Below the pieces are notes generated by a model. The model was not told where the DNA came from. It did not search any database and was given only the letters and a program-made list of their open reading frames with translations. This document shows, in pieces, positions 8,256-64,000 of a DNA stretch of 64,000 nucleotides (positions are counted from its first letter, which is position 1; the number at the start of each line of letters is the position of its first letter). The position numbers and the translations under genes were made by a program. The stretch covers positions 930,001-994,000 of the forward strand of contig NZ_CP092332.1 in NCBI RefSeq assembly GCF_029866485.1. Direction: 5' to 3'. The DNA is from Flavobacterium keumense. Lineage in GTDB: Bacteria > Bacteroidota > Bacteroidia > Flavobacteriales > Flavobacteriaceae.

Positions 8256-8275
8256 TTTAGGAGGGTCTCTTTCTT

Positions 8276-8713
8276 GTGAAAAACAAACCCATACAAACAG
8301 TTGCACCTGAAGAGTCTTTAAGTTTGTATAATGAATCGAATCCTTCAGGGATTTGGTCTTTTAGAGTTAGGGACGAATTTGCAGGAGATATTGGATCAAT
8401 TAATGCTGCTTCAGTATCTATTTGTACTAAAACGTACACACCTATTGCTGCTCCAGATATTGACAGGAACAGTTTAGCGGTATTTCCAAACCCAAATAAT
8501 GGAGAGTTTAATGTGGTGTTTTTTAGCATGTATACTTCTGGAGTCACTATAACGCTTCATGATTTAACAGGTAAGAAAATATACCAGGCGAGTTTTCCTA
8601 GTACTCCTATCTTTGCAGAAACAATTCAAATAAAAGGAATTCAATCCGGGGTATACTTATTAACAGTAGTAGACGGATATAATGAAACCGTGAAAAAAAT
8701 ATTTGTTAATTGA
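8276..8713 (+). CDS. Out-of-frame C-terminal part of the metalloprotease, with T9SS type A signal
   Basis: Continues the P-type domain of the preceding gene (SLYNESNPSGIWSFRVRDEFAGD) and ends in a classic T9SS type A sorting domain (VFPNPNNGEF, LHDLTGKKIY, GIQSGVYLLTV, KKIFVN). The GTG at 8276 is only the first possible start. Homologous sequence continues upstream in a third frame: positions 8248-8282 read NYDLGGSLSCEKQT, the expected link. Reading the whole domain therefore needs two shifts, near 8247-8251 (AAAATTATG) and near 8279-8287 (run of A then CCC). It is unlikely to be translated as an independent protein. It ends 14 bp before the convergent pth stop. Confidence 0.6.
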   Translation: MKNKPIQTVAPEESLSLYNESNPSGIWSFRVRDEFAGDIGSINAASVSICTKTYTPIAAPDIDRNSLAVFPNPNNGEFNVVFFSMYTSGVTITLHDLTGKKIYQASFPSTPIFAETIQIKGIQSGVYLLTVVDGYNETVKKIFVN

Positions 8714-8727
8714 GTTATTGAATCGTT

Positions 8728-9354
8728 CTATTTCCCATTAAAAGAGGTCATGGTGTTTTCTAATCCTGCAGTACCGAAAGATTTAATTATTTCTGAAGCT
8801 AATTCAAGTCGTTCTGGAAGTTTTGATTTTTCTTCTTCGGTCCATTCGCCAAGAACATAATCTACTTGTTGACCTTTTTTAAATTGGTCACTAATTCCAA
8901 ATCGGAAACGGCTATAATTTTGAGTATTTAAAATCAAATTGATGTTTTTAAGTCCGTTATGGCCACCATCACTTCCTTTGGGTTTGATGCGAATGGTTCC
9001 AAAAGACAAATTCAAATCATCGGTTATTACTAAAACATTTTCCAAAGGAATATTTTCTTTGTCCATCCAAAATTTTACCGCTTTCCCACTTAAATTCATG
9101 TAGGTGTTTGGTTTTAGCAATAAAAAAGTACGCCCTTTGAACTTGTATTCCGCTAGAGTTCCCAACTTTACTGTTTCAAAAGAAAGACTTTCTTTTTTGG
9201 CTAAAAAATCCAACACTTTGAAACCAATATTGTGCCGTGTGTTTACATATTCAGCACCAATATTTCCTAATCCTACAATTAAAAATTTCTTCATATCCTT
9301 GGTTTCCTTTTTTGATTGAGTCGTTCTAAACAGTTGGGTTATCCATTGTATCAT
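8728..9354 (-). CDS. pth: Peptidyl-tRNA hydrolase
   Basis: Releases tRNA from prematurely dropped peptidyl-tRNA. The family core begins at residue 21 with MKKFLIVGLGNIG. Conserved elements are NTRHNIGF (Asn and catalytic His), LLKPNTYMNLSG, DDLNLSFG and KGSDGGHNGLKN. The 20-residue N-terminal extension rests on the ATG at 9354, but a predicted -7 element lies at 9359-9366. That would make this start leaderless, so the internal ATG at 9294 may be the true start, giving 188 residues. The order prs, rplY, pth is widely conserved in bacteria. Confidence 0.92.
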   Translation of the reverse strand: MIQWITQLFRTTQSKKETKDMKKFLIVGLGNIGAEYVNTRHNIGFKVLDFLAKKESLSFETVKLGTLAEYKFKGRTFLLLKPNTYMNLSGKAVKFWMDKENIPLENVLVITDDLNLSFGTIRIKPKGSDGGHNGLKNINLILNTQNYSRFRFGISDQFKKGQQVDYVLGEWTEEEKSKLPERLELASEIIKSFGTAGLENTMTSFNGK

Positions 9355-9358
9355 TTTG

Positions 9359-9366
9359 CAAAAGTA
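9359..9366 (-). promoter_or_regulatory. Possible -7 element for pth
   Basis: Minus-strand TACTTTTG matches TAnnTTTG, but it sits only 4 bp from the longer ATG. No -33 TTG at the expected distance. If real, it favours the internal pth start at 9294. Confidence 0.35.
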
Positions 9367-9416
9367 AACTTATTTTTTTAATAGTTTTTGACTTTCAAAA
9401 GCCAAGAAAAATCAAA

Positions 9417-9450
9417 TAAAAAAAGCACCAGTTGAAAAACTGATGCTTTT
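9417..9450 (-). terminator. Terminator of the prs-rplY unit
   Basis: 13-bp arms AAAAGCACCAGTT / AACTGATGCTTTT with one wobble position and a GAAA-type loop. The A-run at 9417-9424 becomes the U-tract on the minus strand. It lies 23 bp after the rplY stop. Confidence 0.75.
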
Positions 9451-9472
9451 GGTATAATTGGATTTGAAAAAA

Positions 9473-10084
9473 TTATTTTTTCTTTCCTTTTGCAGGTGCT
9501 TTTGCCGCTTTTGCCGCTTCTTGAGCCGCTTTCATAGCTGCACGAGACATCTTCACTTGACAGATAACGGTGTTATCAGGGTGCATGATTTTGAAGTTAG
9601 GCGTAGGAACTTTAGTTACATATAACTTGTTACCCATGTCAAGAGGAGTAATGTCAGCTTCAACAAAATCAGGAAGATTTTTTGGTAAAGCTTTTACTTT
9701 TAATTTACGGTTGTTGATACGTAAATCTCCACCTGCCATAACTCCTTTAGAGTTACCGATGATTTTTACAGGAACTTCAATAGTAATTTCTTTGTTATCA
9801 AACAATTGAAAAAAGTCAATGTGTAAGATTCTGTCAGATACTGGATGAACCTGAATGTCTTGTAAAATAGCATTGAACGATTTACCGTTACCCAAATCAA
9901 TCACAACTGTGTGTGCGTTTGGAGTGTAAACCAAGTTTTTGAATGCTTTTTCTTCTGCTGAAAAATGAACTGGTTGATCTCCTCCGTATAACACGCAAGG
10001 AACCGCTCCAGCATTACGTAAGGCTTTAGTAGCAACTTTGCCCACGCTTTCTCTTTCTGATCCTTTAATTGTAATCGATTTCAT
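9473..10084 (-). CDS. rplY: 50S ribosomal protein L25 (general stress protein Ctc type)
   Basis: Binds 5S rRNA in the large subunit. The N-terminal L25 domain (residues about 1-95) shows [12 protein letters not shown] and ILHIDFFQL. The C-terminal TL5/Ctc beta domain (about 100-185) shows [16 protein letters not shown]. It ends in an Ala/Lys-rich tail ([14 protein letters not shown]). At 203 residues it is the long Ctc form, not the short 94-residue L25 of enterobacteria. It lies 27 bp downstream of prs in the same direction and probably shares its transcript; the hairpin at 9417-9450 ends the unit. Confidence 0.95.
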
Positions 10085-10111
10085 TGTAAAAAAATATAGT
10101 TATTAAAAATA

Positions 10112-11053
10112 TTACATAATAAATTTTCCACTGATGGAATTGTTGTTTTGTACCATTTGCATTACTTCTGCAAAAAGTGGTGCACAACTCAACACTTTAA
10201 TTTTGCTTGATTCTTTCTTCAACGGAATAGAATCGGTAACAATTAACTCGCTTAATTTTGAGTTTTCTATTTTTTCATAAGCATCGCCAGATAAGATTGG
10301 GTGGGTACAAATAGCTCTGACGCTTAATGCTCCTTTTTCAATCATTAAATCGGCAGCTTTTGCTAAAGTACCTCCAGTATCGATCATATCGTCTACTAGA
10401 ATTACATTTCTACCTTTTACCTCACCAATTAACTCCATAGTGTCAATCACATTGGCAACTTTTCTTTGTTTATAACAAACGACTACATCTGAATTTAAAA
10501 ATTTAGAGTAGGCATATGCTCTTTTTGAGCCTCCCATGTCAGGAGAAGCTATAGTTAAATTATCCAAGTCCAAACTTTTTATATAAGGTAAAAAGATGGT
10601 TGAAGCAAAGAGATGGTCAACTGGTTTTTCAAAAAAGCCTTGGATTTGATCTGCATGTAAATCCATTGTCATTACTCTAGTTGCTCCCGCGGCATCCAAT
10701 AAATTAGCTACTAATTTTGCTCCTATTGGCACCCTTGGTTTGTCTTTTCTATCCTGTCTTGCCCAACCAAAGTAAGGGATAACAGCTGTAATATGTCGAG
10801 CTGATGCGCGTTTAGCAGCATCAATCATCAATAACAATTCCATCAAATTATCAGCACTTGGGAACGTAGAGCACACAATAAAAACACGTAATCCACGGAT
10901 TGATTCTTCATAAGAAGGTTGAAATTCTCCGTCGCTATAGGTTGAGGTTATTACCTTTCCTAATGGAATTCCGTAAGCTTCTGCTATCTGCTCGGCTAAA
11001 TATACACTTTTTGAACAGGCAAAAATTTTAGCTTCTGGTTCGTGGTGTGACAT
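10112..11053 (-). CDS. prs: Ribose-phosphate pyrophosphokinase
   Basis: Makes PRPP from ribose 5-phosphate and ATP for nucleotide, histidine and tryptophan synthesis. Seen in the sequence: YSDGEFQPSYEESIRG near the N-terminus, the ATP-binding WARQDRK region, MTMDLHADQIQGFF, and the PRPP-binding loop VILVDDMIDTGGTL near residues 215-230. At 313 residues it is the usual length. It is the first gene of a leftward prs-rplY pair, divergent from tRNA-Leu. Confidence 0.95.
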   Translation of the reverse strand: MSHHEPEAKIFACSKSVYLAEQIAEAYGIPLGKVITSTYSDGEFQPSYEESIRGLRVFIVCSTFPSADNLMELLLMIDAAKRASARHITAVIPYFGWARQDRKDKPRVPIGAKLVANLLDAAGATRVMTMDLHADQIQGFFEKPVDHLFASTIFLPYIKSLDLDNLTIASPDMGGSKRAYAYSKFLNSDVVVCYKQRKVANVIDTMELIGEVKGRNVILVDDMIDTGGTLAKAADLMIEKGALSVRAICTHPILSGDAYEKIENSKLSELIVTDSIPLKKESSKIKVLSCAPLFAEVMQMVQNNNSISGKFIM

Positions 11054-11171
11054 TGATAATCTGTTGTTAAAACCGATTCAATTAAATAAGTAAGCTTCAT
11101 TTGCTACTACTTGCTTAAGTATCTATTTGCCTCGGCTGTAGTTAGTTAGTAAGTTGTGTTGTAACGAGGTG

Positions 11172-11179
11172 CAAATTTA
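11172..11179 (-). promoter_or_regulatory. Predicted -7 element for prs-rplY
   Basis: Minus-strand TAAATTTG matches TAnnTTTG. It lies 118 bp upstream of the prs ATG and implies a leader of about 110 nt. No -33 TTG at 19-21 bp. Confidence 0.4.
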
Positions 11180-11245
11180 GAAAATTTATTCAACTCTGAA
11201 AGGAAAAAATTAAGTATTTTTATTAGAGGTTTTAATTTTATTTTT

Positions 11246-11253
11246 TACATTTG
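11246..11253 (+). promoter_or_regulatory. Predicted -7 element for tRNA-Leu
   Basis: TACATTTG matches TAnnTTTG, 87 bp before the mature tRNA. It shares the 287-bp divergent prs/tRNA-Leu intergenic region, where nothing else was recognised. Confidence 0.4.
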
Positions 11254-11340
11254 CACCGTGTTAAAAGAATTGATGGTTGATTTAAAACAATTTCTTCTTT
11301 TCTCATGCTAAAATAACACTTGTTATTTTATTTCTGTTAA

Positions 11341-11420
11341 GCCCAGGTGGCGGAATTGGTAGACGCGCTGGTCTCAAACACCAGTTCTTAGGAGTACCGG
11401 TTCGATCCCGGTCCTGGGTA
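11341..11420 (+). tRNA. tRNA-Leu (anticodon CAA)
   Basis: Acceptor arms GCCCAGG and CCTGGGT pair (first pair G-U), with discriminator A at 11420. The anticodon stem CTGGT/ACCAG encloses loop CTCAAAC, giving anticodon CAA. The T arm contains GGTTCGATCCC. The extra variable-region bases fit a class II leucine tRNA. The 3' CCA is not encoded. A strong terminator follows. Confidence 0.95.
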
Positions 11421-11421
11421 C

Positions 11422-11453
11422 AAAAGCCTCTTCGAAAGAAGAGGCTTTTTTGT
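11422..11453 (+). terminator. Terminator after tRNA-Leu
   Basis: Perfect 12-bp stem AAAAGCCTCTTC / GAAGAGGCTTTT with a GAAA loop, followed by more T residues, 1 bp after the tRNA. Confidence 0.9.
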
Positions 11454-11529
11454 TTTTACTTTCTTCTTTAATATTGCTTTATCTTTAGTATTTGCTCCTG
11501 TTATTTTCTTTACAATTACTAAAAAACAG

Positions 11530-11537
11530 TATATTTG
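11530..11537 (+). promoter_or_regulatory. Predicted -7 element for the photolyase cluster
   Basis: TATATTTG matches TAnnTTTG, 48 bp before the TTG start at 11586. A longer reading frame beginning with TTG at 11535 would start inside this element. Confidence 0.45.
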
Positions 11538-11585
11538 TTTATTATTTTTACAAAAAAATTAAACAAAATAATCTATTTTTCTCTT

Positions 11586-13094
11586 TTGAAAAAACAGCCT
11601 ATACATATTGTTTGGTTCAAACGCGACTTTCGATTAATTGATAATGAAGCTTTGTTTCATGCCCATCAATCGGGTGTGCCGCTTTTATTGATTTGTTTTT
11701 TTGAGCCGTCCGTTATGAATTATCCCGATTCTGATGTACGGCATTGGCGGTTTGTGTACGAATCCATTCAAGATTTGAATAAAAAACTTCAACCATTTAA
11801 CGCAAAAATTTATTTTTTTCATGATGAAGTTAAGAACGTATTTTCAGAATTAATTCAAAAATTTGAAGTAGAATCTGTTTTCTCTCATCAAGAAATTGGA
11901 AATAAAGTGACTTACGACCGCGATTTGGAAATGAAAGCGTTTTTTGATTCCAATGACATCATTTGGAAAGAATTTCAAATGCACGGTGTCATTCGTAAAT
12001 TAAAATCAAGACAAGATTGGGACAAGCGCTGGGAGCAGGTAATGCGTGATACCCCAAAAATTATAAATGAATCCGATTTAAAAACGATAGTATTAGATTC
12101 GGAGTTTTATGAGAAAATAAAAGGAGCCGAATTATCAACTGAAATCACCACTCCTAACAAAAATTTTCAACGTGGTGGCGAATACTGGGCGTGGCGTTAT
12201 TTGGACAGTTTTGTAAAAGAACGTTATGTCAATTACAGCAAACACATTTCTAAACCCGCTTTGAGTCGAAAAGGTTGCAGCCGACTGTCTCCATATTTGA
12301 CTTATGGTAACATCAGTATGCGCATGATTTACCAATACACCAATAAGCACTACGAAGTGTCAAAAAACAAACGCGCTATTCTCAATTTTGTTTCGCGCTT
12401 GCATTGGCATTGTCATTTTATGCAAAAGTTTGAAGACGAATGCGAAATGGAATTTGAAAATGCCAACCGAGCGTATGATGCTTTGGTAAAACCAAGAAAT
12501 GAAATCTATATCAAGGCCTGGCAAGAAGGAAAAACAGGTGTGCCAATAGTCGATGCGTGCATGCGTTGTTTGGTGGCAACAGGTTATATCAATTTCAGAA
12601 TGCGCGCCATGGTGGTGTCGTTTTTTACCTTTAATTTATGGCAAGATTGGCGCGAATTACATTTTTTAGCCCGTCAATTTTTAGATTACGAACCCGGAAT
12701 TCATTACCCGCAAATTCAGATGCAATCAGGTACAACGGGGATCAATACGATTCGAATTTACAATCCAATAAAAAATTCCGAAGAACACGATTCTGAAGGG
12801 GTATTTATTAAACAATGGTTGCCCGAATTAGCAGAAGTACCAGTGCATTTGCTTCACGAACCTTGGAAAATGAACGAAATGGAGCAGCAGTTTTACAATT
12901 GTATTATAGGAAAAGACTATCCAGCTCCTATTGTTGATATTGAAGCAACTCGAAAACAGGCTAGTGACATCGTTTGGAGTTTTCGAAAAAAAGAGGAAGT
13001 CAAACAAGAAGGGAAACGAATTTTACAAAAACACGTAAGTAACCCCAATAAACCCAACAATGCGAGGAATAAAAAAACAAAACCTACCAACTAA
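11586..13094 (+). CDS. Photolyase/cryptochrome-family protein, divergent class I type
   Basis: Flavoprotein of the family that repairs UV pyrimidine dimers with blue light or senses it. The N-terminal antenna-binding Rossmann domain starts [18 protein letters not shown]. The C-terminal FAD domain shows [41 protein letters not shown] and WREL. The last part reads [16 protein letters not shown] and IKQWLPEL. The stretch that in typical class I enzymes is an Asn-rich, Trp-containing flavin loop reads [10 protein letters not shown] here, so the substrate is uncertain. No ATG precedes the conserved domain; I use TTG 11586 (LKKQPIH), giving 502 residues. The tail is Lys/Asn-rich. The end overlaps the DUF2256 gene by 35 bp. 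First of four rightward genes. Confidence 0.85.
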
Positions 13095-52529: not shown

Positions 52530-52616
52530 AGAGAGGTGTCCGAGTGGTTGAAGGAGCAAGCCTGGAAAGTTTGTATATGGGTAACTGTATCGTGGGTTCG
52601 AATCCCATCCTCTCTG
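52530..52616 (+). tRNA. tRNA-Ser (anticodon GGA)
   Basis: Acceptor arms AGAGAGG and CCTCTCT pair fully, with discriminator G at 52616. The anticodon stem CAAGC/GTTTG encloses loop CTGGAAA, giving GGA. A long variable arm (class II) precedes the T arm GTGGGTTCGAATCCCAT. The 3' CCA is only partly encoded (CA follows). A short open frame over this region is coincidental. Confidence 0.95.
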
Positions 52617-52624
52617 CACTATAA

Positions 52625-52665
52625 AAAGACCTTGATAAATTACTATCAAGGTCTTTCTATTTTTA
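52625..52665 (+). terminator. Terminator after tRNA-Ser
   Basis: 13-bp arms AAAGACCTTGATA / TATCAAGGTCTTT around AATTAC, then a T-rich tail, 9 bp after the tRNA. Confidence 0.88.
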
Positions 52666-52812: not shown

Positions 52813-53301
52813 ATGCAAATTACAATGAGAATACTTTTATTTTTTTTCTTTTCGAGCGCTATGTTTGGACAACAATTGCATCATCAAATGTTGTCAGCAC
52901 AAGGTAACACTATTGTTACTTCTAAAGGTGTGAAAGTCAGTCAGACTATTGCTCAGCAGTCCGTGGTTGGAACCAATAGAACTAATAAATTGATTGTAAG
53001 TCAAGGATTTCAACAAAGTAAAACTTCCAATGTGGCAATTGTTGCTAATGAAGCTGTTGATACTAAGGTCTACCCAAATCCTGTAATTGATCATGTTAAT
53101 TTTAAATTTTCTTCACCAGTGAATGGTAAAATTCAAATCACATTATTTGATATTCATGGTCGACTTTTGTTGCGTCAAGAAAAAGAAGCTGTCGATAATA
53201 TTGTAACAATCACCAATCTCCTATTAGCCGAAGGAGAATACATGGTTAGGCTTGAAGGAAGTCGTTATTTATTTACCACCAAAATTATAAAAGCAAATTA
53301 A
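52813..53301 (+). CDS. Small secreted protein with T9SS type A sorting signal
   Basis: A signal peptide (MRILLFFFFSSAMFGQQ) leads into only about 60 residues (HHQMLSAQGNTIVTSKGVKV, SQTIAQQSVVGTN) and then a type A C-terminal domain (VYPNPVIDHVNFKF, LFDIHGRLLLRQ, LLAEGEYMVRLEG, TTKIIKAN). The start may be the ATG at 52813 or the one at 52825 just before the signal peptide. Such small CTD proteins stand at the head of many flavobacterial tail-fibre-like loci, as I recall. It is the only gene of this operon with a visible T9SS signal. Ends 12 bp before the next gene. Confidence 0.85.
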   Translation: MQITMRILLFFFFSSAMFGQQLHHQMLSAQGNTIVTSKGVKVSQTIAQQSVVGTNRTNKLIVSQGFQQSKTSNVAIVANEAVDTKVYPNPVIDHVNFKFSSPVNGKIQITLFDIHGRLLLRQEKEAVDNIVTITNLLLAEGEYMVRLEGSRYLFTTKIIKAN

Positions 53302-53313
53302 AAAAACATATTA

Positions 53314-53940
53314 ATGAAAAAAATTGTACCCCACATCCTTTTTCTCCTACTTACTTTTACTGCCCATTCTCAAGGCGTATTTTTTAATTTAGGTAAAAAT
53401 TTTAGTTCATACTCCTACAGAAATAGGTCTTCATTTTCTGAAAAAATCAAAATCAATGGTATTGGAGATGCCTATGAGTTAGGTTATACTGCACCATTGA
53501 AATACAAAAATTTGAAAGAATTAAAATATTCAGCCAGTCTCACATTAAATGAATACAATGGGACTGGGGTGTCTTCAACCAATAAATTGTCATATACAAC
53601 GGCTTATTTAGGAGTTCAGAATACGATAGATTATCAATTTTATGAATCGTTTTATTTTTTCTTGAGTGCTAGAGTGGGTCTGAACGCGGCTACAATGTTG
53701 AGAGGCAAACAAGAGATTGACAATTCAGTATACAATTTAGTACATCAAAAAGAATTTTCAGGATTAGTTATTCGACCTATGGTGGGTGTATATGCAAAGT
53801 ATTATCTCACCAAAACGGGATATTTGAGTGCCGGATTAAATCTTAGCAAAGGCCTAAAGTTGGGAAACAATTCTGATAATGTTACAATAAATAATAGTCA
53901 AATTGTATTTGGAGGATATTTTGATTTAATAAAAAGATAA
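53314..53940 (+). CDS. Probable outer-membrane beta-barrel protein of the surface operon
   Basis: A 208-residue protein with signal peptide MKKIVPHILFLLLTFTAHSQ. The rest alternates short amphipathic strands (FFNLGKNFSSYSYRN, YSASLTLNEYNG, YTTAYLGVQNTIDYQF, FFLSARVGLN, VRPMVGVYAKYYL-like, YLSAGLNLSKGL) and ends QIVFGGYFDLIKR. This layout suggests a small barrel in the outer membrane. I do not recognise a family. It may anchor or export the fibre-like protein encoded 6 bp downstream; this is inference from position. Confidence 0.7.
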   Translation: MKKIVPHILFLLLTFTAHSQGVFFNLGKNFSSYSYRNRSSFSEKIKINGIGDAYELGYTAPLKYKNLKELKYSASLTLNEYNGTGVSSTNKLSYTTAYLGVQNTIDYQFYESFYFFLSARVGLNAATMLRGKQEIDNSVYNLVHQKEFSGLVIRPMVGVYAKYYLTKTGYLSAGLNLSKGLKLGNNSDNVTINNSQIVFGGYFDLIKR

Positions 53941-53946
53941 TAACCA

Positions 53947-56900
53947 ATGAGAAAAATAGTTTACATCGTTTTATTTTTAGTTTCATCCTTGGGTTTTTCG
54001 CAAAACAAAGGAATTACCTATCAAGCAGTAATTTATGCTCCTGGAGGTCAAAACATTCCGGGAGTTAATGTGAATAATGTACCAATGACTAACAAAGCAA
54101 TTTGTTTGCAATTTAGTTTTTTAGATACTAATACGGGAATAGAGTATGAGGAAGTGATAAAAACAACAACAGACACTTTTGGAATGGTCAATATCACTAT
54201 AGGTACAGGAAATAAAACAGGTGGATATGCCACTTCTTTTAGTGGGATTAATTGGAATGCAACCGAAAATAAAACATTGAAAGTGGCGCTTGATCCAACA
54301 GGCTTATGTAATCAGTTTGAAGAACTTTCAAGCGAAGTGTTGACTTCGGTGCCATTTGCAAATGCTGCAAATACAGCTACTAATGTCTCGGGCGTAGTTG
54401 CTTTAATCAATGGAGGTACAGGGGCTACTACAGCAGCAGGTGCACGTACTAATTTAGGCTTAGGAAACGTGGATAATACTTCAGATATAAATAAACCTAT
54501 GTCAACGGCGACTAAAGCCTATGTAGACAGTCAAATTGTAAGTTCAACTATTCCAGATGCTACTACAACTAGTAAAGGTAAAATTCAATTAGCAGGTGAT
54601 TTGGGAGGTACAGCTGCCGCACCGACCGTTCCTGGATTAGCATTGAAAGCAAATAGTTCCGATGTAACAACTTCATTAGCTACCAAAGAAAATACCTCAA
54701 ATAAAAGTACGGACGTTACTTTGTCATCCAATTCGGATGTGAAATTTCCAACAGAGAAAGCAGTAAAAACCTATGTAGATACTCAAGTTGCAGGAGCGAC
54801 CATTGCAGATGCATCTTCTTTAATTAAAGGTAAAATTCAATTGGCAGGTGATTTGGGAGGTACAGCTGCCGCACCAACTGTTCCTGGATTGGCATTGAAA
54901 GCGAATAGTTCCGATGTAACAACTTCATTAGCTACCAAAGAAAACACCTCAAATAAAAGTACGGATGTTACTTTGTCATCCAATTCGGATGTGAAATTTC
55001 CAACAGAGAAAGCAGTAAAAACCTATGTAGATACTCAAGTTGCAGGAGCGACCATTGCAGATGCATCTTCTTTAACTAAAGGTAAAATTCAATTGGCAGG
55101 TGATTTGGGAGGTACAGCTGCCGCACCGACCGTTCCTGGATTAGCATTGAAAGCGAATACTACTGATTTGACTACTGAGGTAAACAGAGCAACTGCCGCA
55201 GAGGCTACATTGACAGCTAATGTAACGGCTAATGCCACTGCGATTGCTGCTGAGATTACAAGAGCAAACGCTGCAGAATCTTTAAAAGCACCAATCAATA
55301 ATCCAACATTTACCGGAACGGTTTCTGGAATTGATAAAACTATGGTAGGCTTGAGTAATGTAGATAATACTTCGGATGCCAACAAACCCGTTTCAACGGC
55401 TACGCAAACAGCGTTGGATTTAAAGGCACCTTTAGCCTCGCCAACATTTACCGGAACGGTTTCTGGAATTGATAAAACAATGGTAGGCTTGAGTAATGTA
55501 GATAATACTTCGGATGCCAACAAACCCGTTTCAACGGCTACGCAAACAGCGTTGGATTTAAAGGCACCTTTAGCTTCGCCAACATTTACCGGAACGGTTT
55601 CTGGAATTGATAAAACAATGGTAGGCTTGAGTAATGTAGATAATACTTCGGATGCCAACAAACCCGTTTCAACGGCTACACAAACAGCGTTGGATTTAAA
55701 AGAGAATATAGCCAATAAAAGTACTGATATTGCTGCTGATGCAAACTCTACTACTAAATATCCTTCTGTTAAATTAATTAAAGATTATGTTGACACATTA
55801 AATGCAGCAGCTGGAGTTGCTGACGGTTCAATTACTTCGGCTAAAATTACTGATGGAACAATTGTAAATGCCGATGTGGCTGCTAATGCGGCTATTGCCT
55901 ATTCTAAGTTAAATTTAAGTAACTCAATTTTAACTATTGATATCGTTAATGATGCAGTTGAAACAGCCAAGATAAAAGATGCCAATGTAACTGAAGCAAA
56001 ATTAGCAGCTGACGCAGTTACTTCTGCTAAAATTAAAGATGGCGAGATTGTAAATGCAGATATTAGTGCTTCTGCTGCTATTGTGGATACTAAATTAGCT
56101 ACTATAGCTACATCAGGAAAAGTAAGTAATTCTGCAACTACGGCTACGGATGCCAATACAGCATCTGCGATTGTGTCTCGAGATGCTAATGGTGACTTTG
56201 CAGCAGGAACAATTACTGCTGATTTAGACGGTAATGCATCTACCGTTACCAACGGGGTGTATACTACAGATAAAATCAGTGTATTGTCAGCCACAACTTC
56301 TTCAGAATTGAAAGGAGTAATTTCTGACGAGACAGGTTCGGGAGCGTTAGTATTTGCTACTTCACCAACATTGGTAACTCCTACTTTAGGAGTTGCAACT
56401 GCAACAAGCGTCAATGGATTAACTCCAACAGCACTTGCTACAGGATTTACTATTGCAGGAGGAAGTACTACTTCAAAAACATTAACAGTTAGTGGTGATG
56501 CTACAGTAAGCGGAACCACGAGCGGAACAAATACAGGTGATCAAACCATTACGTTAACAGGGGATGTTACAGGTTCAGGAACAGGAAGTTTTGCTGCAAC
56601 CATTGGAACAGGAAAAGTAACTACCACAACTATTGCAGCAGATGCAGTAACCTCTGCTAAAATTGCCGATGGAACAATTGTAGTTGGAGATATGGCAGAT
56701 AATGCAATTGAAACAGCGAAGATAAAAGATGCCAATATAACTGAAGCAAAATTAGCAGCTGACGCAGTTACTTCTGCTAAAATTAAAGATGGCGAGATTG
56801 TAAATGCAGATATTAGTGCTTCTGCTGCTATTGTGGATACTAAATTAGCTACTATAGCTACATCAGGAAAAGTAAGTAATTCTGCAACTACGGCTACGGA

Positions 56901-59550
56901 TGCCAATACAGCATCTGCGATTGTGTCTCGAGATGCTAATGGTGACTTTGCAGCAGGAACAATTACTGCTGATTTAGACGGTAATGCATCTACCGTTACC
57001 AACGGGGTGTATACTACAGATAAAATCAGTGTATTGTCAGCCACAACTTCTTCAGAATTGAAAGGAGTAATTTCTGACGAGACAGGTTCGGGAGCGTTAG
57101 TATTTGCTACTTCACCAACATTGGTAACTCCTACTTTAGGAGTTGCAACTGCAACAAGCGTCAATGGATTAACTCCAACAGCACTTGCTACAGGATTTAC
57201 TATTGCAGGAGGAAGTACTACTTCAAAAACATTAACAGTTAGTGGTGATGCTACAGTAAGCGGAACCACGAGCGGAACAAATACAGGTGATCAAACCATT
57301 ACGTTAACAGGGGATGTTACAGGTTCAGGAACAGGAAGTTTTGCTGCAACCATTGGAACAGGAAAAGTAACTACCACAACTATTGCAGCAGATGCAGTAA
57401 CCTCTGCTAAAATTGCCGATGGAACAATTGTAGTTGGAGATATGGCAGATAATGCAATTGAAACAGCGAAGATAAAAGATGCCAATATAACTGAAGCAAA
57501 ATTAGCAGCTGACGCAGTTACTTCTGCTAAAATTAAAGATGGCGAGATTGTAAATGCAGATATTAGTGCTTCTGCTGCTATTGTGGATACTAAATTAGCT
57601 ACTATAGCTACATCAGGAAAAGTAAGTAATTCTGCAACTACGGCTACGGATGCCAATACAGCATCTGCGATTGTGTCTCGAGATGCTAATGGTGACTTTG
57701 CAGCAGGAACAATTACTGCTGATTTAGACGGTAATGCATCTACCGTTACCAACGGGGTGTATACTACAGATAAAATCAGTGTATTGTCAGCCACAACTTC
57801 TTCAGAATTGAAAGGAGTAATTTCTGACGAGACAGGTTCGGGAGCGTTAGTATTTGCTACTTCACCAACATTGGTAACTCCTACTTTAGGAGTTGCAACT
57901 GCAACAAGCGTCAATGGATTAACTCCAACAGCACTTGCTACAGGATTTACTATTGCAGGAGGAAGTACTACTTCAAAAACATTAACAGTTAGTGGTGATG
58001 CTACAGTAAGCGGAACCACGAGCGGAACAAATACAGGTGATCAAACCATTACGTTAACAGGGGATGTTACAGGTTCAGGAACAGGAAGTTTTGCTGCAAC
58101 CATTGGAACAGGAAAAGTAACTACCACAACTATTGCAGCAGATGCAGTAACCTCTGCTAAAATTGCCGATGGAACAATTGTAGTTGGAGATATGGCAGAT
58201 AATGCAATTGAAACAGCGAAGATAAAAGATGCCAATGTTAGCTATGCAAAAATTCAAAATGTTAGTGCCACAAATACAGTTTTAGGTCGTGTATCAACAG
58301 GAGCAGGGGTAATAGAAGAAATTGCCACTACAGGATCTGGTAATGTAGTAAGAGCTACATCACCAACCTTGGTAACACCTGCGCTTGGAACTCCTTCGGC
58401 CGCGGTCTTAACTAACGCAACAGGATTGCCTTTAACAACGGGAGTAACTGGAATTTTGCCTGTTGCAAACGGTGGTACAGGATCTTCTACTAAAAACTTT
58501 GTAGACTTAACAACTGATCAAACTATCGCTGGAGTAAAAACTTTTTCAGGAAGTTCAACTGTAGTAAACCAAAATTTAACCGTTAACGCAGCAGGAACAA
58601 CAGGACAAGGAATTATTTTATCTGATGATGGAGATATTGTGGACAACAATGATGGTGCCGCTACATTCCGTTTTACGGGAGGGGTTAAAATTAATGATGG
58701 CAATGGAAGTGCAGGAACAACAACTAAGATAACCTTAGCAAATACAGGTGCTATCACCGCTGCGGGAGGTGTTACGGCGAGTCAATTAATTTCAAACGTT
58801 GCAACTGGTACAGCGCCGCTTGTGGTAACCTCTACTACACCAGTAGCTAATTTGAACATTGGAGGAAATGCAGCAACAGCTACAAAATTTGCAGCTACAA
58901 AGAACATCAATGGCGTAGCATTTGATGGTAGTGCTGATATTACAGTTGCGGCAGCTGCAGGTACTTTGACAGGAACTACCTTAGCATCTAATGTGGTAAG
59001 TTCAAGTTTAACTAGCGTGGGCACAATAACAACAGGTACTTGGAATGGAACAACCATTGCAATTGCAAACGGAGGTACTGGAGCAACTACTAAAACAACG
59101 GCATTTGATGCATTGTCACCTATGACAACTGCTGGCGATATTATTTATGGAGGAACCAACGGTACAGGAACACGATTAGCTAAAGGGACCGATGGACAAG
59201 TGTTAACGTTAGCTAGTGGAGTACCAACTTGGGCTTCAGGAGTATCAACAATTACCTCAAAAACATCAAGTTATACACTAACTACAAGTGATAATTATGT
59301 TATTGCGTCTTCAGGATCGGGTATTACATTTACGTTGCCAACCGCAGTTGGAAATACTGGAAAAGAATTTACAATTAAAAATATTAGTGCCAATACTGTT
59401 ACAATTACCACAACAAGTTCGCAAAAAATTGTTGTAGATGCAGCAAACAGTGCAGCTACAACGGCGACCTTAGGGATAGAAGCTTCTAATAATTGGATTC
59501 GTGTAATTTCTGATGGAACACAATGGATTGCCTTTAGAGCCTTATTCTAA
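53947..59550 (+). CDS. Giant repetitive secreted fibre-like protein (1867 residues)
   Basis: Signal peptide (MRKIVYIVLFLVSSLGFSQ), then a globular N-terminal part starting NKGITYQAVIYAPGGQ, a motif shared with many Bacteroidota surface proteins. From residue about 150 it is almost pure low-complexity Ala/Thr/Ser/Gly/Asp repeat. Three nested arrays are visible: 84-residue units from residue 211 (GKIQLAGDLGGTAAAPTVPG), 46-residue units from 453 (FTGTVSGIDKTMVGLSNVDN), and three 250-residue units from about 681 to 1431 (AADAVTSAKIKDGEIVNADI and TGDQTITLTGDVTGSGTGSF). Similar units occur in phage tail-fibre and collar-like proteins. The C-terminal 100 residues (YTLTTSDNYVIASS, TLPTAVGNTGKEFTIKN) form a distinct tip-like domain ending WIAFRALF. 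No T9SS signal or LPxTG is seen. A role as an extended fibre or adhesin is inference. Confidence 0.85.
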   Translation: MRKIVYIVLFLVSSLGFSQNKGITYQAVIYAPGGQNIPGVNVNNVPMTNKAICLQFSFLDTNTGIEYEEVIKTTTDTFGMVNITIGTGNKTGGYATSFSGINWNATENKTLKVALDPTGLCNQFEELSSEVLTSVPFANAANTATNVSGVVALINGGTGATTAAGARTNLGLGNVDNTSDINKPMSTATKAYVDSQIVSSTIPDATTTSKGKIQLAGDLGGTAAAPTVPGLALKANSSDVTTSLATKENTSNKSTDVTLSSNSDVKFPTEKAVKTYVDTQVAGATIADASSLIKGKIQLAGDLGGTAAAPTVPGLALKANSSDVTTSLATKENTSNKSTDVTLSSNSDVKFPTEKAVKTYVDTQVAGATIADASSLTKGKIQLAGDLGGTAAAPTVPGLALKANTTDLTTEVNRATAAEATLTANVTANATAIAAEITRANAAESLKAPINNPTFTGTVSGIDKTMVGLSNVDNTSDANKPVSTATQTALDLKAPLASPTFTGTVSGIDKTMVGLSNVDNTSDANKPVSTATQTALDLKAPLASPTFTGTVSGIDKTMVGLSNVDNTSDANKPVSTATQTALDLKENIANKSTDIAADANSTTKYPSVKLIKDYVDTLNAAAGVADGSITSAKITDGTIVNADVAANAAIAYSKLNLSNSILTIDIVNDAVETAKIKDANVTEAKLAADAVTSAKIKDGEIVNADISASAAIVDTKLATIATSGKVSNSATTATDANTASAIVSRDANGDFAAGTITADLDGNASTVTNGVYTTDKISVLSATTSSELKGVISDETGSGALVFATSPTLVTPTLGVATATSVNGLTPTALATGFTIAGGSTTSKTLTVSGDATVSGTTSGTNTGDQTITLTGDVTGSGTGSFAATIGTGKVTTTTIAADAVTSAKIADGTIVVGDMADNAIETAKIKDANITEAKLAADAVTSAKIKDGEIVNADISASAAIVDTKLATIATSGKVSNSATTATDANTASAIVSRDANGDFAAGTITADLDGNASTVTNGVYTTDKISVLSATTSSELKGVISDETGSGALVFATSPTLVTPTLGVATATSVNGLTPTALATGFTIAGGSTTSKTLTVSGDATVSGTTSGTNTGDQTITLTGDVTGSGTGSFAATIGTGKVTTTTIAADAVTSAKIADGTIVVGDMADNAIETAKIKDANITEAKLAADAVTSAKIKDGEIVNADISASAAIVDTKLATIATSGKVSNSATTATDANTASAIVSRDANGDFAAGTITADLDGNASTVTNGVYTTDKISVLSATTSSELKGVISDETGSGALVFATSPTLVTPTLGVATATSVNGLTPTALATGFTIAGGSTTSKTLTVSGDATVSGTTSGTNTGDQTITLTGDVTGSGTGSFAATIGTGKVTTTTIAADAVTSAKIADGTIVVGDMADNAIETAKIKDANVSYAKIQNVSATNTVLGRVSTGAGVIEEIATTGSGNVVRATSPTLVTPALGTPSAAVLTNATGLPLTTGVTGILPVANGGTGSSTKNFVDLTTDQTIAGVKTFSGSSTVVNQNLTVNAAGTTGQGIILSDDGDIVDNNDGAATFRFTGGVKINDGNGSAGTTTKITLANTGAITAAGGVTASQLISNVATGTAPLVVTSTTPVANLNIGGNAATATKFAATKNINGVAFDGSADITVAAAAGTLTGTTLASNVVSSSLTSVGTITTGTWNGTTIAIANGGTGATTKTTAFDALSPMTTAGDIIYGGTNGTGTRLAKGTDGQVLTLASGVPTWASGVSTITSKTSSYTLTTSDNYVIASSGSGITFTLPTAVGNTGKEFTIKNISANTVTITTTSSQKIVVDAANSAATTATLGIEASNNWIRVISDGTQWIAFRALF
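54577..55150 (+). repeat. Tandem array of 252-bp units
   Basis: The piece GGTAAAATTCAATT recurs at 54577, 54829 and 55081, exactly 252 bp apart. Two complete units and the start of a third are nearly identical at DNA level and encode 84 residues each. Confidence 0.85.
55303..55700 (+). repeat. Tandem array of three 138-bp units
   Basis: CCAACATTTACCGGAACGG recurs at 55303, 55441 and 55579. The 138-bp units encode 46 residues each and differ at only a few bases. Confidence 0.88.
55988..58237 (+). repeat. Tandem array of three nearly identical 750-bp units
   Basis: AATGCAATTGAAACAGCGAA occurs at 56701, 57451 and 58201, exactly 750 bp apart; by eye the sequence between these copies is identical. 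The first unit matches from about 55988 on, with a few differences just upstream. Each unit encodes 250 residues. Confidence 0.92.
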
Positions 59551-59560
59551 CAAAGACAGC

Positions 59561-60541
59561 ATGAATAAATTGATAGTATTAATAGTATTGTGTTTGGTAT
59601 TCTTTAAAGGAACTGCCCAAACCGGTATTGGTACCACTACTCCCGTAAATAAGTTACAGGTAGAAACTACCTCTGCAGACCCAGCTACATCAGGAGCATT
59701 AGCAAATGGTAATTTACGATTAAGTGGAACAACAGGAAGTCATGTTTTGGATTTTGGGTTGAGTAGTTCAAGTACCTTTTCTTGGTTGCAATCAAGGTCA
59801 AAATCGGCTTATGGAACAAACTATAATTTAATATTAAATCCGAATGGTGGGAATGTAGGTATTGGAACTACGAACCCAACAGCAAAATTAAATTTAGTAG
59901 GCGGTGGAATTAGAATCTATGACGGTTTTACAAATGCAAGTAATCGACCTGCAATCAATACCGGAATTATAGGTAATTATGAAATAAGAGGAGTCGGTTC
60001 CAGCTCTGGTACCACTCAATCTGACACCAGTGATGATGGTTTTCTTCGTTTGTCTGCCGGAGGAGGGACTAATGCAAATACACAATCCTCCATTGATATT
60101 TCAGGATTTTCTACGGTGGCTGATATGAACAATAATATTGTGTTAAGAACAGCAGGAACCGAAAGACTCCGAATAGATAATGCGGGTGCCACAACCTTAG
60201 CAGGTTCTTTAACAGGAAATGGAACTACCAGTACTTTGGCTAATTTTAGTTCGGTTATGAACGATCAAACAGGAACTACGTACACCCTCACTAATGCCGA
60301 TAACGGAAAGATCATTACGTTCAACAATGCTAGTGCTATTTCAGTAACAGTTCCCTCATTATCTGTTGGATTTAATTGTATGATTATTCAAAAAGGAGCA
60401 GGTCAAATAACTTTATCTCCTTCTGCAGTAACTATTTCCAATAGATACAGTTTTACCAAAACAGCGGGGCAATATGCTATTTTAAGTTTAGTGTGTATTT
60501 CATCAGGAGTATATATTTCATCAGGGGATATGTCAAATTAA
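59561..60541 (+). CDS. Secreted tail-fibre-like protein with AQTGIGTTTP start
   Basis: I start at the ATG at 59561 (MNKLIVLIVLCLVFFKGTAQ signal peptide); the longer frame overlaps the preceding gene. The mature part starts with TGIGTTTPVNKLQVE, and a second copy GNVGIGTTNPTAKLNLVGG lies near residue 105. The rest is Thr/Ser/Gly-rich beta-type sequence (VLRTAGTERLRIDNAGATTL) with a C-terminal part (YTLTNADNGKIITFNNASA) resembling the end of the giant protein. 326 residues. No T9SS signal visible. Probably a surface structural protein made with its neighbours. Confidence 0.82.
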   Translation: MNKLIVLIVLCLVFFKGTAQTGIGTTTPVNKLQVETTSADPATSGALANGNLRLSGTTGSHVLDFGLSSSSTFSWLQSRSKSAYGTNYNLILNPNGGNVGIGTTNPTAKLNLVGGGIRIYDGFTNASNRPAINTGIIGNYEIRGVGSSSGTTQSDTSDDGFLRLSAGGGTNANTQSSIDISGFSTVADMNNNIVLRTAGTERLRIDNAGATTLAGSLTGNGTTSTLANFSSVMNDQTGTTYTLTNADNGKIITFNNASAISVTVPSLSVGFNCMIIQKGAGQITLSPSAVTISNRYSFTKTAGQYAILSLVCISSGVYISSGDMSN

Positions 60542-60548
60542 TTGAGCT

Positions 60549-62018
60549 ATGAAAAAAAAATGGTATTTTATTTTTTTTCTATTCCTAATCTTTTTCAAGG
60601 TTCAGGCACAAATGATGGCTCCCTATCAGGCCGTTACCAAACAACCTAGGATACAATTTGATTATTGGATTTACAGTATTTGCGGGGGAAATGGGTCAAC
60701 CTCTCAGTATCCAGTGGTTCCTGCCAATTTGACTGAGATGAATACGATGTTTAATACCATTAATTCCAATACAACTCTATACCAAACAGGCAGAACCAAT
60801 TCTACTAAAATTTTAGATTGGCAAAGTATCTCCGAACTAAGTTCAATAGGGGTTAATTTGCCAAATAGTGGAACTTATTTTGGATTTAAGGTACAAGGAA
60901 CATTCATCCCTTTAGAAACTGGAAACTATACTTTTACGCTAGAAGCCGATGATGCAAGTGATTTAATTATTGAAGGCACTACAGTGATTGGAACTTATTC
61001 AGGGCAGGCCTTACCTGCATTAGGTACGCATACAGGATCAATTTATTTGACTGCTGGAAAGGCTTATTCGTTTATAGCAAGAATGCAACAAGGTGGTGGA
61101 GGTTTTGGATTTAGATTATACTGGAAATCGCCTACTCAAGCTGTTGCACCTAGCGCTTATACAAGTGTGCATCCAGCCAATACTTACTACCCAAGCTGGA
61201 CACATAACTTGCAAGAAATTGTAACAAGCCCAAATTTGAATGGTTCAACAGCAGCTTTAGCAGCTCCAAGTGCCAAATACATTCAAACCGCATTTAGTAA
61301 TTACACAGACGGAGTGTATTGGATCAATTTACCTTATGCAGGTCCTACACAAATATATTGTTTGTTGAACTCATCCATTGATGGAGGTGGTTGGATGATG
61401 GCGATGAAAGCAACTAGGGGGACTACTTTTAATTATTCGAGTACCTATTGGACAGCAGCTAATACTTTAAATCCTGGAAATACCAATCGAAATGATGGTG
61501 ATGCCAAATTTGATACTATGAATTATTTTAATGCCAAAGATATATTGGGCTTGTGGCCAGATATTCCATGGAATTATAACGGGAGTACAACTGGAGGAAG
61601 TGTAAATACAAATGGTTCATATAATGTTTGGTGTTGGTTACAAAATAATTTTAATAGTGGGACTAGAATAACACCGATTAATTTTTTTAGTTCGGCCAAC
61701 CGACTTTTTTTGGGCGATGCCAATAATTTTTCTGGTAAAGGAACCGCATTTTCAGCCCAAACAGACATTAGATTTTATGGATTCAATTATTCCAATGCAA
61801 ATTCTACGGCAAATGTGCGATGGGGATTCGGTTGGAATGAAAATGGAGGAGGTTTGTATCCCAATGGAGAAGCGACTTCTAACGATGTCTCTGGTGGAAT
61901 TGGGATGACTGGATTGTTTTCGACTAATATTAATTATTCAGCCGGAGATCAATTAAGTTGTTGTTCCACTAATTCTGGTATTAATCGTTCTGCAAGAGTA
62001 GAAATTTATATTCGATAA
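60549..62018 (+). CDS. Secreted protein with PA14-like and fibrinogen-like domains
   Basis: Signal peptide MKKKWYFIFFLFLIFFKVQAQ. Residues about 95-200 resemble a PA14 domain, a carbohydrate-binding fold found in adhesins and glycosidases (GYFGFKVQGTFIPLETG-like, YTFTLEADDASDLIIEG, GFGFRLYWKSP). The C-terminal half (about 235-489) resembles a fibrinogen/intelectin-type recognition domain: GVYWINLPYAGPTQIYCLLN, SIDGGGWMMAMKA, and a late Cys pair in QLSCCSTN. Glycan binding is likely but not proven. 489 residues. It is 7 bp after the previous gene and 1 bp before the next. Confidence 0.8.
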   Translation: MKKKWYFIFFLFLIFFKVQAQMMAPYQAVTKQPRIQFDYWIYSICGGNGSTSQYPVVPANLTEMNTMFNTINSNTTLYQTGRTNSTKILDWQSISELSSIGVNLPNSGTYFGFKVQGTFIPLETGNYTFTLEADDASDLIIEGTTVIGTYSGQALPALGTHTGSIYLTAGKAYSFIARMQQGGGGFGFRLYWKSPTQAVAPSAYTSVHPANTYYPSWTHNLQEIVTSPNLNGSTAALAAPSAKYIQTAFSNYTDGVYWINLPYAGPTQIYCLLNSSIDGGGWMMAMKATRGTTFNYSSTYWTAANTLNPGNTNRNDGDAKFDTMNYFNAKDILGLWPDIPWNYNGSTTGGSVNTNGSYNVWCWLQNNFNSGTRITPINFFSSANRLFLGDANNFSGKGTAFSAQTDIRFYGFNYSNANSTANVRWGFGWNENGGGLYPNGEATSNDVSGGIGMTGLFSTNINYSAGDQLSCCSTNSGINRSARVEIYIR

Positions 62019-62019
62019 G

Positions 62020-62730
62020 ATGAGAAAAATATATTTAATTGTATTATTATTTAGCTTTATTGGTTTTGCCCAAACCGGTATAGGTACGACTACGCCCGCA
62101 GTAAAACTTCATATAAGATCAAACGGTTCTACCTTACGTTTAGAAGGGAGCGATCATACCTATATGGAATTTTTTCCCCAAGGGGCTTTGACACGATTTG
62201 GTTGGGTTGGTTATCCTTCAGCAAATTCTAATGATTTTACAATATCAAGTCAGAGCGCAGTGGGATCATTATTATTGTACACTAATAATTCGGAACGATT
62301 TAGAATAAATGCATCAGGAAACGTCGGTATTGGTACATCTACTCCATCCGTTCGTTTACAAGTGGCAGGTGATATTATAGCTAATTCTATTGCGGGTTCT
62401 TCAGACGCTCGATTTAAAACGAATGTTTTTCCAATTGAGAATCCTTTACAAAAAGTGATGCAATTGAGAGGCGTTACTTTTGACTGGAAGACCAAAGAAT
62501 TTCCTAATAGAAAATTTACCGAAAACCGCGCTTTAGGTTTCATCGCACAAGAAGTAGAACAAGTGATTCCTGAAGTGGTTCAAACAGAAAATAATGCTGA
62601 TGGCTATAAATCAGTGCAATACGATAAAGTGGTTGCTTTATTGGTAGAAGCAATAAAAGAACAACAAAAACAAATAGAACAATTACAGCAAAAAGTTAAA
62701 GAGCTAACAGAAAAAGTAAATGAAAAGTAA
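62020..62730 (+). CDS. Secreted tail-fibre-like protein with S74-type intramolecular chaperone domain
   Basis: Signal peptide (MRKIYLIVLLFSFIGFAQ), then TGIGTTTPAVKLHIRS and a second copy GNVGIGTSTPSVRLQVAGD. From about residue 130 a peptidase S74-type domain is recognisable: SDARFKTNVFPIENPLQKV, LRGVTFDWK, RALGFIAQEVEQVIPEVVQ, and YDKVVALLVEAIKEQ. A C-terminal coiled coil follows (QQKQIEQLQQKVKELTEKV). In phage fibres this domain trimerises the fibre and then cuts itself off; the Ser-Asp pair at the start of the domain fits self-cleavage. 236 residues. It overlaps the next gene by 11 bp. Confidence 0.88.
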   Translation: MRKIYLIVLLFSFIGFAQTGIGTTTPAVKLHIRSNGSTLRLEGSDHTYMEFFPQGALTRFGWVGYPSANSNDFTISSQSAVGSLLLYTNNSERFRINASGNVGIGTSTPSVRLQVAGDIIANSIAGSSDARFKTNVFPIENPLQKVMQLRGVTFDWKTKEFPNRKFTENRALGFIAQEVEQVIPEVVQTENNADGYKSVQYDKVVALLVEAIKEQQKQIEQLQQKVKELTEKVNEK

Positions 62731-63649
62731 CGGATTACATAGTATTTACCTATTTTTTTTAACCCTTCCGTCTTTATTTGCACAGACGGTTACAACTACT
62801 GCTGGATCCATAAATTTTAATTTAAGTTCTGCATGGGCATCTCCTACTCAAGTGGCAAATGGAATTACCATTCAAGATGGTCATATAATAAATGTTCCAA
62901 CAGGAACCGTTTTTTATAGTGGGAAAATTGATTTTGTAGGAACTGGAAAATTACAACTAATTGGAACGGGTAAATGGATGCCAGGCCCTTCAATTACAAG
63001 TTTAAAAAGTTGTAAGGAAATATTAAGTTATTATCCCATGTCGCCTTCAGGACAATATAGTATTGATCCAGACGGAGCTGGTGCACTACCAAGTACCAAC
63101 TGTTATTGCGACATGACTACAGATGGCGGCGGTTGGACATTAGTACTTAATTATTTGCATCGTGGAGGGACTAATCCTGCGCTTCAAGTCAAGACTAATA
63201 GTCTCCCTGTTTTAGGGTCAACCGTTTTAGGTACTGATGAATCAGGTTCGTCAACCACTTGGGGACACGCAGCTCCTTCCTATTTAAACTCATTTAACTT
63301 CACAGAACTTCGTTTTTACGGAGCTACATCGGGTCATAGTAGAATAATTCATTTTAAAACAAGTCATGCAAATACTATATCCTATTTTAGAACAGGTTCA
63401 GGTAGTATGTCAGGAATTAATAGTAGTTATACTGCATTAGTCTCACATTCGGCTTATATTCCTAATAGCGCTGTAAGTAATTTTGTAAATGAAGGAAATT
63501 TAGCTATGACCAATTTCCCATTTTGGTTGGGAGCTAATTACCATTGGGGAATAAGAGGGCAAGATTACAGATGGGAAGTAGACGATTATGCAGCAAGTAT
63601 TGGGAATGGATATCAATTTCACACCTACAATCAGATATGGATACGGTAA
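62720..63649 (+). CDS. Secreted fibrinogen-like-domain protein
   Basis: Signal peptide (LHSIYLFFLTLPSLFAQ). Residues about 22-95 are short beta-rich sequence (TVTTTAGSINFNLSSAW). From about 97 the fibrinogen C-terminal type domain begins: SCKEILSYYPMSPSGQYSI, DPDGAGALPSTNCYCDMTTDGG and GWTLVLNYL. Further on, the segment FPFWLGANYHWGIRGQDYRW corresponds to the end of the domain. Fibrinogen-like domains bind acetylated or other glycans in animals; in bacteria they are found in surface and fibre-tip proteins. 309 residues. It overlaps both neighbours (11 and 13 bp). Confidence 0.82.
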   Translation: MKSNGLHSIYLFFLTLPSLFAQTVTTTAGSINFNLSSAWASPTQVANGITIQDGHIINVPTGTVFYSGKIDFVGTGKLQLIGTGKWMPGPSITSLKSCKEILSYYPMSPSGQYSIDPDGAGALPSTNCYCDMTTDGGGWTLVLNYLHRGGTNPALQVKTNSLPVLGSTVLGTDESGSSTTWGHAAPSYLNSFNFTELRFYGATSGHSRIIHFKTSHANTISYFRTGSGSMSGINSSYTALVSHSAYIPNSAVSNFVNEGNLAMTNFPFWLGANYHWGIRGQDYRWEVDDYAASIGNGYQFHTYNQIWIR

Positions 63650-64000
63650 TAAAAACAATTAAATTAGCAGTAATTGTAGTATTTATAAATACTTCTACCG
63701 CTCAAACCGGTATAGGTACAACTACGCCTAATGCTTCTGCTAAATTAGAGGTTGCAGCAACAAATAAAGGATTTTTACCACCACGGATAGTATTAACTAG
63801 CGCAACAGATGGCACCACTATACCTTCTCCGGCTACGGGTTTATTGATTTATAATACAGCTACAGCAGGCAGTGCGCCAAATAATGTTGTACCAGGCTAT
63901 TATTATTGGAACGGGACTAGTTGGATTCAAATTGCCAATGGATTAATTATTGATTCAAGTAAATCAAGTAGTTTTACTTTGGCAGCAACAGATAATAATA
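63637..64000 (+). CDS. Secreted AQTGIGTTTP-type protein (3' cut by window end)
   Basis: ATG at 63637 overlaps the previous gene by 13 bp. The signal sequence (TIKLAVIVVFINTSTAQ) is followed by TGIGTTTPNASAKLEVAAT and GFLPPRIVLTSATDG. Then GLLIYNTATAG and VPGYYYWNGTSWIQI occur, a set typical of Bacteroidota tail-fibre-like proteins. The frame stays open to the last base. It is the third protein of this operon with this start, so the operon continues past the window. Confidence 0.82.
   Translation, partial: MDTVIKTIKLAVIVVFINTSTAQTGIGTTTPNASAKLEVAATNKGFLPPRIVLTSATDGTTIPSPATGLLIYNTATAGSAPNNVVPGYYYWNGTSWIQIANGLIIDSSKSSSFTLAATDNN

Follow-up and report, generated by a model that had tools for sequence, protein, structure and literature searches.

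The window analysed here, a stretch of 64,000 nucleotides (G000:C1:930001-994000) from a 2.54 Mb single-contig genome of the genus Flavobacterium, ends in a cluster of genes for secreted, fibre-like proteins. Eight genes on the + strand, here named g1 to g8, occupy positions 52825-64000, and neighbouring genes are at most 12 bp apart or overlap briefly (successive gaps measure 12, 6, 7, 7 and 1 bp, and the last two junctions overlap by 11 and 13 bp). Each product carries a signal peptide, called by a simple hydrophobicity rule for g4-g8 and by eye for g1-g3. An earlier sequence-only reading of this DNA had described the tight packing of eight secreted products and had proposed a fibre locus assembled from tail-fibre-like modules. 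Both descriptions held. The second is well supported: g3 and g6 match phage tail-fibre families, and the base of g3 is homologous to the mosaic adhesive trimer (MAT) fibres of Bdellovibrio. The cluster comprises 11 genes in total, the remainder of g8 and the genes g9, g10 and g11 lying past the window end.

The first gene, g1 (52825..53301, +), encodes a secreted protein of 158 amino acids (aa) that consists of a signal peptide, an N-terminal domain of about 65 aa (QxLHHQMxSxQG ... QGFQQ) and a type A sorting domain of the type IX secretion system (T9SS). The sorting domain scored 39.2 bits against Por_Secre_tail (Pfam cut-off 27 bits), which identifies g1 as a type A T9SS substrate and agrees with the T9SS-signal protein that had been noticed before. 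The corresponding part of the g1 family profile matched solved T9SS sorting domains (8glj, E 8e-7). RemA and RemZ are among the type A substrates named in PMC10994853; g1 ends in the same kind of domain but has nearly no passenger, its N-terminal domain being all that precedes the sorting domain in the mature protein. The genome also encodes the T9SS translocon (SprA, TIGR04189, 2780 bits, cut-off 200).

The second gene, g2 (53314..53940, +), encodes 208 aa that are predicted to fold into an eight-stranded outer-membrane barrel of OmpA/NspA/OmpW shape (mean pLDDT 86.4), as the suggestion of a probable barrel had anticipated. Searches at E <= 0.1 gave it neither a Pfam nor an NCBIfam family, and it is therefore not assigned to PorP/SprF. 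An eight-stranded barrel is too narrow for a conduit and is not a protein pore. The third gene, g3 (53947..59550, +), is the giant repeat fibre of the sequence-only reading. Its 1867 aa comprise a MAT-like base domain (approximately residues 20-150), a repeated shaft that matches phage tail-fibre families (PHROG), and a C-terminal cap. The internal repeats are three units 750 bp apart, of which 300-nt copies are 95% identical, together with repeats spaced at 252 and 138 bp.

Among the genes that follow, g4 (59558..60541, +; 327 aa) and g8 (63637..64000, +, running beyond the window end; 198 aa, scanned for families from its second codon as 197 aa) encode secreted proteins whose mature forms begin with QTGIGTTTP, in line with the AQTGIGTTTP starts reported earlier, and the C-terminal region of g4 is phage-like (phrog_21978, E 6e-11). 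The secreted product of g5 (60549..62018, +; 489 aa) combines PA14 (48.5 bits, cut-off 24) with a fibrinogen-like region, and it matched phrog_1325 (E 3e-34). The secreted g6 protein (62020..62730, +; 236 aa) has a C-terminal Peptidase_S74 (endosialidase chaperone) domain (PF13884, 65.2 bits, cut-off 22), again as predicted, with a coiled-coil-like tail; of the 60 PHROG families that it matched, 25 were listed, and most of these are tail fibres. Two fibrinogen-like proteins had been claimed. One of them, the secreted g7 product (62720..63649, +; 309 aa), scored 70.4 bits against NF040941 (fibrinogen-like YCDxxxxGGGW domain, cut-off 30), and the other, g5, stayed just under the cut-off at 27.7 bits. 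Past the window end, g8 is followed by g9, which has 740 aa and combines LamG with a fibrinogen-like domain, and by g10 and g11 (428 and 436 aa), which are separated by 104 bp.

The sequence-only reading had proposed to look for the same gene order in other genomes and had named its absence as a refutation; a conserved order does exist. It does not take in all eight genes, only the first three: g1 (T9SS-tailed), g2 (barrel) and g3 (fibre) recur in that order at dozens of loci, so the arrangement is not due to chance. A search with g2 found it in 12 of 60 genomes, own genome included, with seven copies in the window's own chromosome. This chromosome holds six full triads, and the window locus is thus one of six places in the genome with this probably T9SS-coupled fibre module; the seventh barrel stands apart, the seventh base-domain fibre sits behind another fibre, and all 7 base-domain places of the genome fall within triad loci. 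The 56 barrel hits (7 from the own genome, 46 from other members of the genus and 3 from outside it) had g1 as the next gene upstream in 49 cases and g3 as the next gene downstream in 53. Hits without g1 were the second barrel of L054 and those of L118, L121, L126, L134, L144 and L145; hits without g3 were the second barrel of L054 and those of L145 and L126, the latter at a contig edge. When the L126 place was fetched at greater length (L265), g1 and g3 were present, with g2 behind them. A scan from g1 alone gave 70 loci with 68 g1 open reading frames (ORFs), three loci having no called g1 ORF. Here g2 was next in 58/68, g3 second next in 56/68 and both in 55/68, and three g1 ORFs had no next gene on their contig. 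The barrel-based and g1-based counts are not independent, because many loci from the same species occur in both. Two loci fetched through relatives of g6 (L072 and L073) show no triad gene.

The typical g1/g2 junction across loci is a 4-bp overlap. At six loci (L163, L165, L173, L175, L189 and L217) g2 looked decayed by eye between open g1 and g3, which points to g1 and g3 as the core. Pairwise distances of g1, g2 and g3 correlate (r 0.67-0.83, 44 loci, 0/2000 permutations), best for g1 and g2 (r 0.83), which argues for joint inheritance and not for contact. The gene before g1 encodes a divergent protein of 330-420 aa in 32/63 loci and a small helix-turn-helix (HTH) protein in 5. Three of the large proteins were scanned against the AraC-type HTH_18 family, one scoring above the cut-off and two below. 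Neither kind of protein precedes g1 in the window copy.

Fibrinogen-like, LamG, PA14, S74, Ig-like and enzyme domains occur in the proteins encoded downstream of the triad, and these genes differ from locus to locus. Ww15, the nearest relative read, has the same cluster at this site, and six flanking proteins are 86-99% identical. Identity with the window copy was 65% for g1, 71% for g2, 48-73% for g3 and 75-77% for g8 and g9; g5 had no match in the compared Ww15 set, and a single gene there combines the g4 start with the S74 end of g6. While g1-g9 differ by 23-52%, g10 (99.6% over 276 aa) and g11 (95%) are nearly identical (L006 13969-16670), which suggests recent exchange or strong constraint. 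The internal repeats of g3 and the shuffling of tips resemble the mosaic evolution of phage fibres.

The base of g3 is a predicted beta-sandwich (mean pLDDT 79). Two of its cysteines, C53 and C121, are almost invariant across the close class of base domains. Profiles of the close class and of a broad class matched each other at 99.9% (E 6.5e-35). The NCBIfam family NF053851 (Bdello_MAT_N) was matched by 58/58 close rows and 10/10 broad rows. Against its cut-off of 60 bits the window base scored 28 bits (E 1.6e-6), two distant relatives scored above it (L258, 62.5 bits; L268, 61 bits) and eight others with seen scores stayed below; full-length window g3 matched no family at E <= 0.001. These scores make the g3 base a homologue of MAT, with the window copy not filed as a member. 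MAT fibres were described on the surface of the predator Bdellovibrio bacteriovorus, where the N-terminal base is argued to be the docking part and the surface partner is reported as unidentified (PMC10769870). The earlier statement that no named system has this composition therefore has to be amended, since the related fibres bear the name of the MAT superfamily; its remaining part stands in so far as no account of the g1-g3 pair, of the triad, or of coupling to a T9SS protein was found in the open-licence full-text literature among the matches listed.

We compared the C-terminal 300-aa stretches of 45 g3 proteins, window g3 included (L168, cut by its contig, was dropped). They matched 14 different Pfam families, so that variable tips stand on a common base as in MAT proteins. 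Shafts and caps range over tail-fibre repeats, phage-tip, collagen, YadA heads (YadA_head repeats in 2/45 caps), Fib_succ_major, Lcl_C and OmpA. A T9SS sorting domain or signal (Por_Secre_tail or other, Pfam E <= 0.001) was found in 0/45 caps, signal types that these families do not recognise being possible. The YadA anchor was likewise absent from all 45 caps and from the 14 matched families, which sets g3 apart from the YadA-type trimeric autotransporters with which it shares fibrous repeats. Thus no signal for export across the outer membrane is recognised in g3 itself. MAT fibres (PMC10769870) and g3 have in common the homologous N-terminal base, a long tail-fibre-like shaft and C-terminal tips that can be exchanged, lectin-type folds among them. 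S74 domains belong to both repertoires, but in the window locus S74 is encoded apart from the fibre, by g6. Collagen-like shafts are a further difference, as is the position of the fibre gene behind a small T9SS-addressed protein and a barrel. The g3 fibres probably work like the Bdellovibrio MAT proteins.

In the SprB/SprF-type operon of Flavobacterium johnsoniae gliding, a giant adhesin gene lies beside an outer-membrane barrel gene and T9SS functions. The giant surface adhesin gene next to a barrel gene is the likeness to our locus; the difference is that the SprB-type adhesin has its own sorting domain, which here belongs to g1, with none recognised in g3.

The pairing of fibre and small T9SS protein extends beyond loci with a barrel. 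Within the genus, the g3 base domain was found in 121/249 genomes (E <= 1e-10) and g2 in 35/249. In ten further loci that were read, a small T9SS protein adjoined the fibre gene in five of the six distant-class ones, L261 being without. A test set of 40 more distant-class loci, taken in list order, gave 50 fibre ORFs, and the T9SS-type tail of the small neighbour was judged by profile or motif. These distant fibres have no g2; 37/50 stand directly behind a T9SS-tailed protein of 136-177 aa and 6 more occupy the second or third place of a row that follows such a protein, 43/50 in total. In the phylum sample the base domain was present in 94/395 Bacteroidota genomes and 57/170 genera. At the 30 best-scoring phylum loci the small protein was directly upstream in 22 and in a row behind one in 3, that is in 25/29 evaluable loci (L317 was not evaluable; the set includes the window's own locus and a repeat of one from the genus). 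At L327 the neighbour is instead a longer protein whose tail is similar. Direct pairing spans six families (f1, f5, f18, f37, f38 and f39). SprA was found in 94/94 base-domain genomes against 304/395 overall, the lists being compared by hand (p = 3e-13 by genome).

Two side observations concern these loci. Rows of three base-domain genes without an adjoining small T9SS protein occur at L261 2-3773 and L288 3117-9500. At L262, L263, L264 and L266 the fibre pair is flanked by the same neighbours (a membrane protein of 1063-1082 aa and a conserved gene row); the pair is of the close class in three of these genomes and of the distant class in the fourth, so that one site holds different fibre versions.

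Because the base stays constant while the rest of the fibre changes, it is likely the docking part, and since a small T9SS-addressed protein is mostly fixed beside this base across the phylum, it is simplest to suppose that g1 binds the base and either brings it out or holds it. The tiny protein may thus provide the connection by which such fibres come to sit on the cell surface. In the model that we somewhat prefer, g3 would be exported via Sec and would form a fibre, probably trimeric, in which the base is conserved and both shaft and cap can be swapped. The g1 protein would cross the outer membrane through the T9SS using its own sorting domain, and its small N-terminal domain would bind the base of g3. 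In this way g1 would either escort the fibre outward, giving the sorting signal in trans, or act as its surface anchor. The barrel would be an additional membrane dock or helper confined to this lineage and not a conduit, and the downstream S74, fibrinogen-like, LamG and PA14 proteins would be additional, quickly exchanged binding tips. A wider version of this model is tentative, and we hold it with clearly less confidence: throughout the phylum, fibres with no sorting domain may be carried through the T9SS by a dedicated partner of about 150 aa that supplies the signal in trans and stays behind as a surface anchor, the kind of surface element that MAT-type bases bind.

Several observations weigh against the preferred model. 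L118, L121 and L134 have barrel and g3 with no g1; 7/50 fibre ORFs of the genus test (in L284, L288 with three, L292, L305, and L289 at a contig edge) and at least 3/29 phylum loci (L319, L322 and L330) have no small T9SS protein. Comparison of the two g1 classes gave only a weak match of their N-terminal domains (31% probability). The correlated distances may reflect shared descent only, and the association of SprA with the base domain is not significant by genus (p = 0.13), hence weak once relatedness is considered. We know of no T9SS in Bdellovibrio, though MAT fibres occur there. Two of the 45 g3 proteins (L200 and L201) end in an OmpA-type peptidoglycan-binding domain, which is odd for an outward-pointing fibre, such domains being usually periplasmic.

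The fibre loci with no g1 and the Bdellovibrio fibres would suit an alternative in which g1 is an independent secreted factor, such as a glycan binder, sensor or sheath protein, that is merely co-expressed while the fibre reaches the surface by another route; contact between g1 and g3 is, after all, deduced from gene neighbourhood. We regard this as unlikely, though it is the strongest competitor, because direct adjacency in most distant loci and in six families is far steadier than co-expression needs, and because g1 typically overlaps g2 by 4 bp and is little more than a small domain with a sorting domain. Less probable again is that, in this lineage, g2 serves as the actual anchor or platform for assembly and holds the g3 base in the outer membrane, with g1 as a cap or accessory. 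The confident barrel fold, its place next to g3 in 53 of the 56 barrel hits and the close g1-g2 correlation speak for it; yet far fewer genomes of the genus have g2 than have the base domain, six loci keep g1 and g3 around a decayed-looking g2, and a barrel of eight strands is no protein pore. The OmpA-type ends of L200 and L201, and a g3 with no recognised export signal beyond Sec, would fit a periplasmic or peptidoglycan-bound filament. This is improbable for g3 as a whole, as the other 43/45 proteins have no such domain, phage-tip, collagen, YadA-head, Fib_succ_major and Lcl_C caps suit outward binding, and the homologous MAT fibres sit on the predator surface according to PMC10769870.

The reading of the cluster as a remnant of a phage or as a tailocin is largely refuted, and we give it hardly any credence. 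It could draw on the g3 shaft, which resembles fibres in 283 phage records, on g6, which does so in 27, and on the position of the cluster directly after a tRNA-Ser gene (52530-52616). However, all products have Sec-type signal peptides, and neither the base domain nor the barrel had a match in 50,697 phage records (E <= 0.01). An exact repeat of the tRNA-Ser end was sought downstream of the cluster and not found. Reading the ORFs of about 20 kb past the window by eye alone revealed no integrase gene and none of the phage structural genes just beyond 64 kb that the sequence-only reading had named as evidence for a prophage; nor did the adjoining ORFs, read in the same way, show virion or tail structural genes of a prophage, tailocin or contractile injection system. 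The left flank consists of TatD, acyltransferase and asparaginase genes, tRNA-Ser, and then a terminator-like hairpin (52625..52656, +), recognised from a consensus match alone by its 13-bp stem and T-rich tail. It lies before g1 and ends the tRNA-Ser/asparaginase side. On the 3' side of g11 lie an OMP_b-brl_2 barrel gene and then murF/alr-like, mscL-like and asd-like genes, the last three named by eye.

Two observations from elsewhere were also recorded. At window positions 6039-8713 (+), a secreted metalloprotease-like gene of 738 aa with a HEMGHQLGANHTF motif (by eye) is followed after 20 bp by a separate ORF with its likely T9SS sorting domain, the reading frame apparently being broken there. 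In L055 at about 7600-12500 (G000:C1 about 145100-150000), Cas1/Cas2-type-looking ORFs (by eye) precede ORFs in which a ISCFLIFNQTTTL peptide recurs, the pattern expected of a translated CRISPR array.

The pairing of a small T9SS-addressed protein with a MAT-like fibre matters in three respects. It extends MAT-like fibres beyond predators, into more than fifty genera of Bacteroidota, and the base domain comes there with a genetically fixed, T9SS-addressed partner candidate, which makes the question of the MAT partner testable by gene deletion. It also offers a likely role for many unnamed small T9SS proteins; in the genome studied here, 6 of the 12 Por_Secre_tail places over the cut-off are g1 genes. 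Finally, it could reveal a form of T9SS export in which the signal is supplied in trans.

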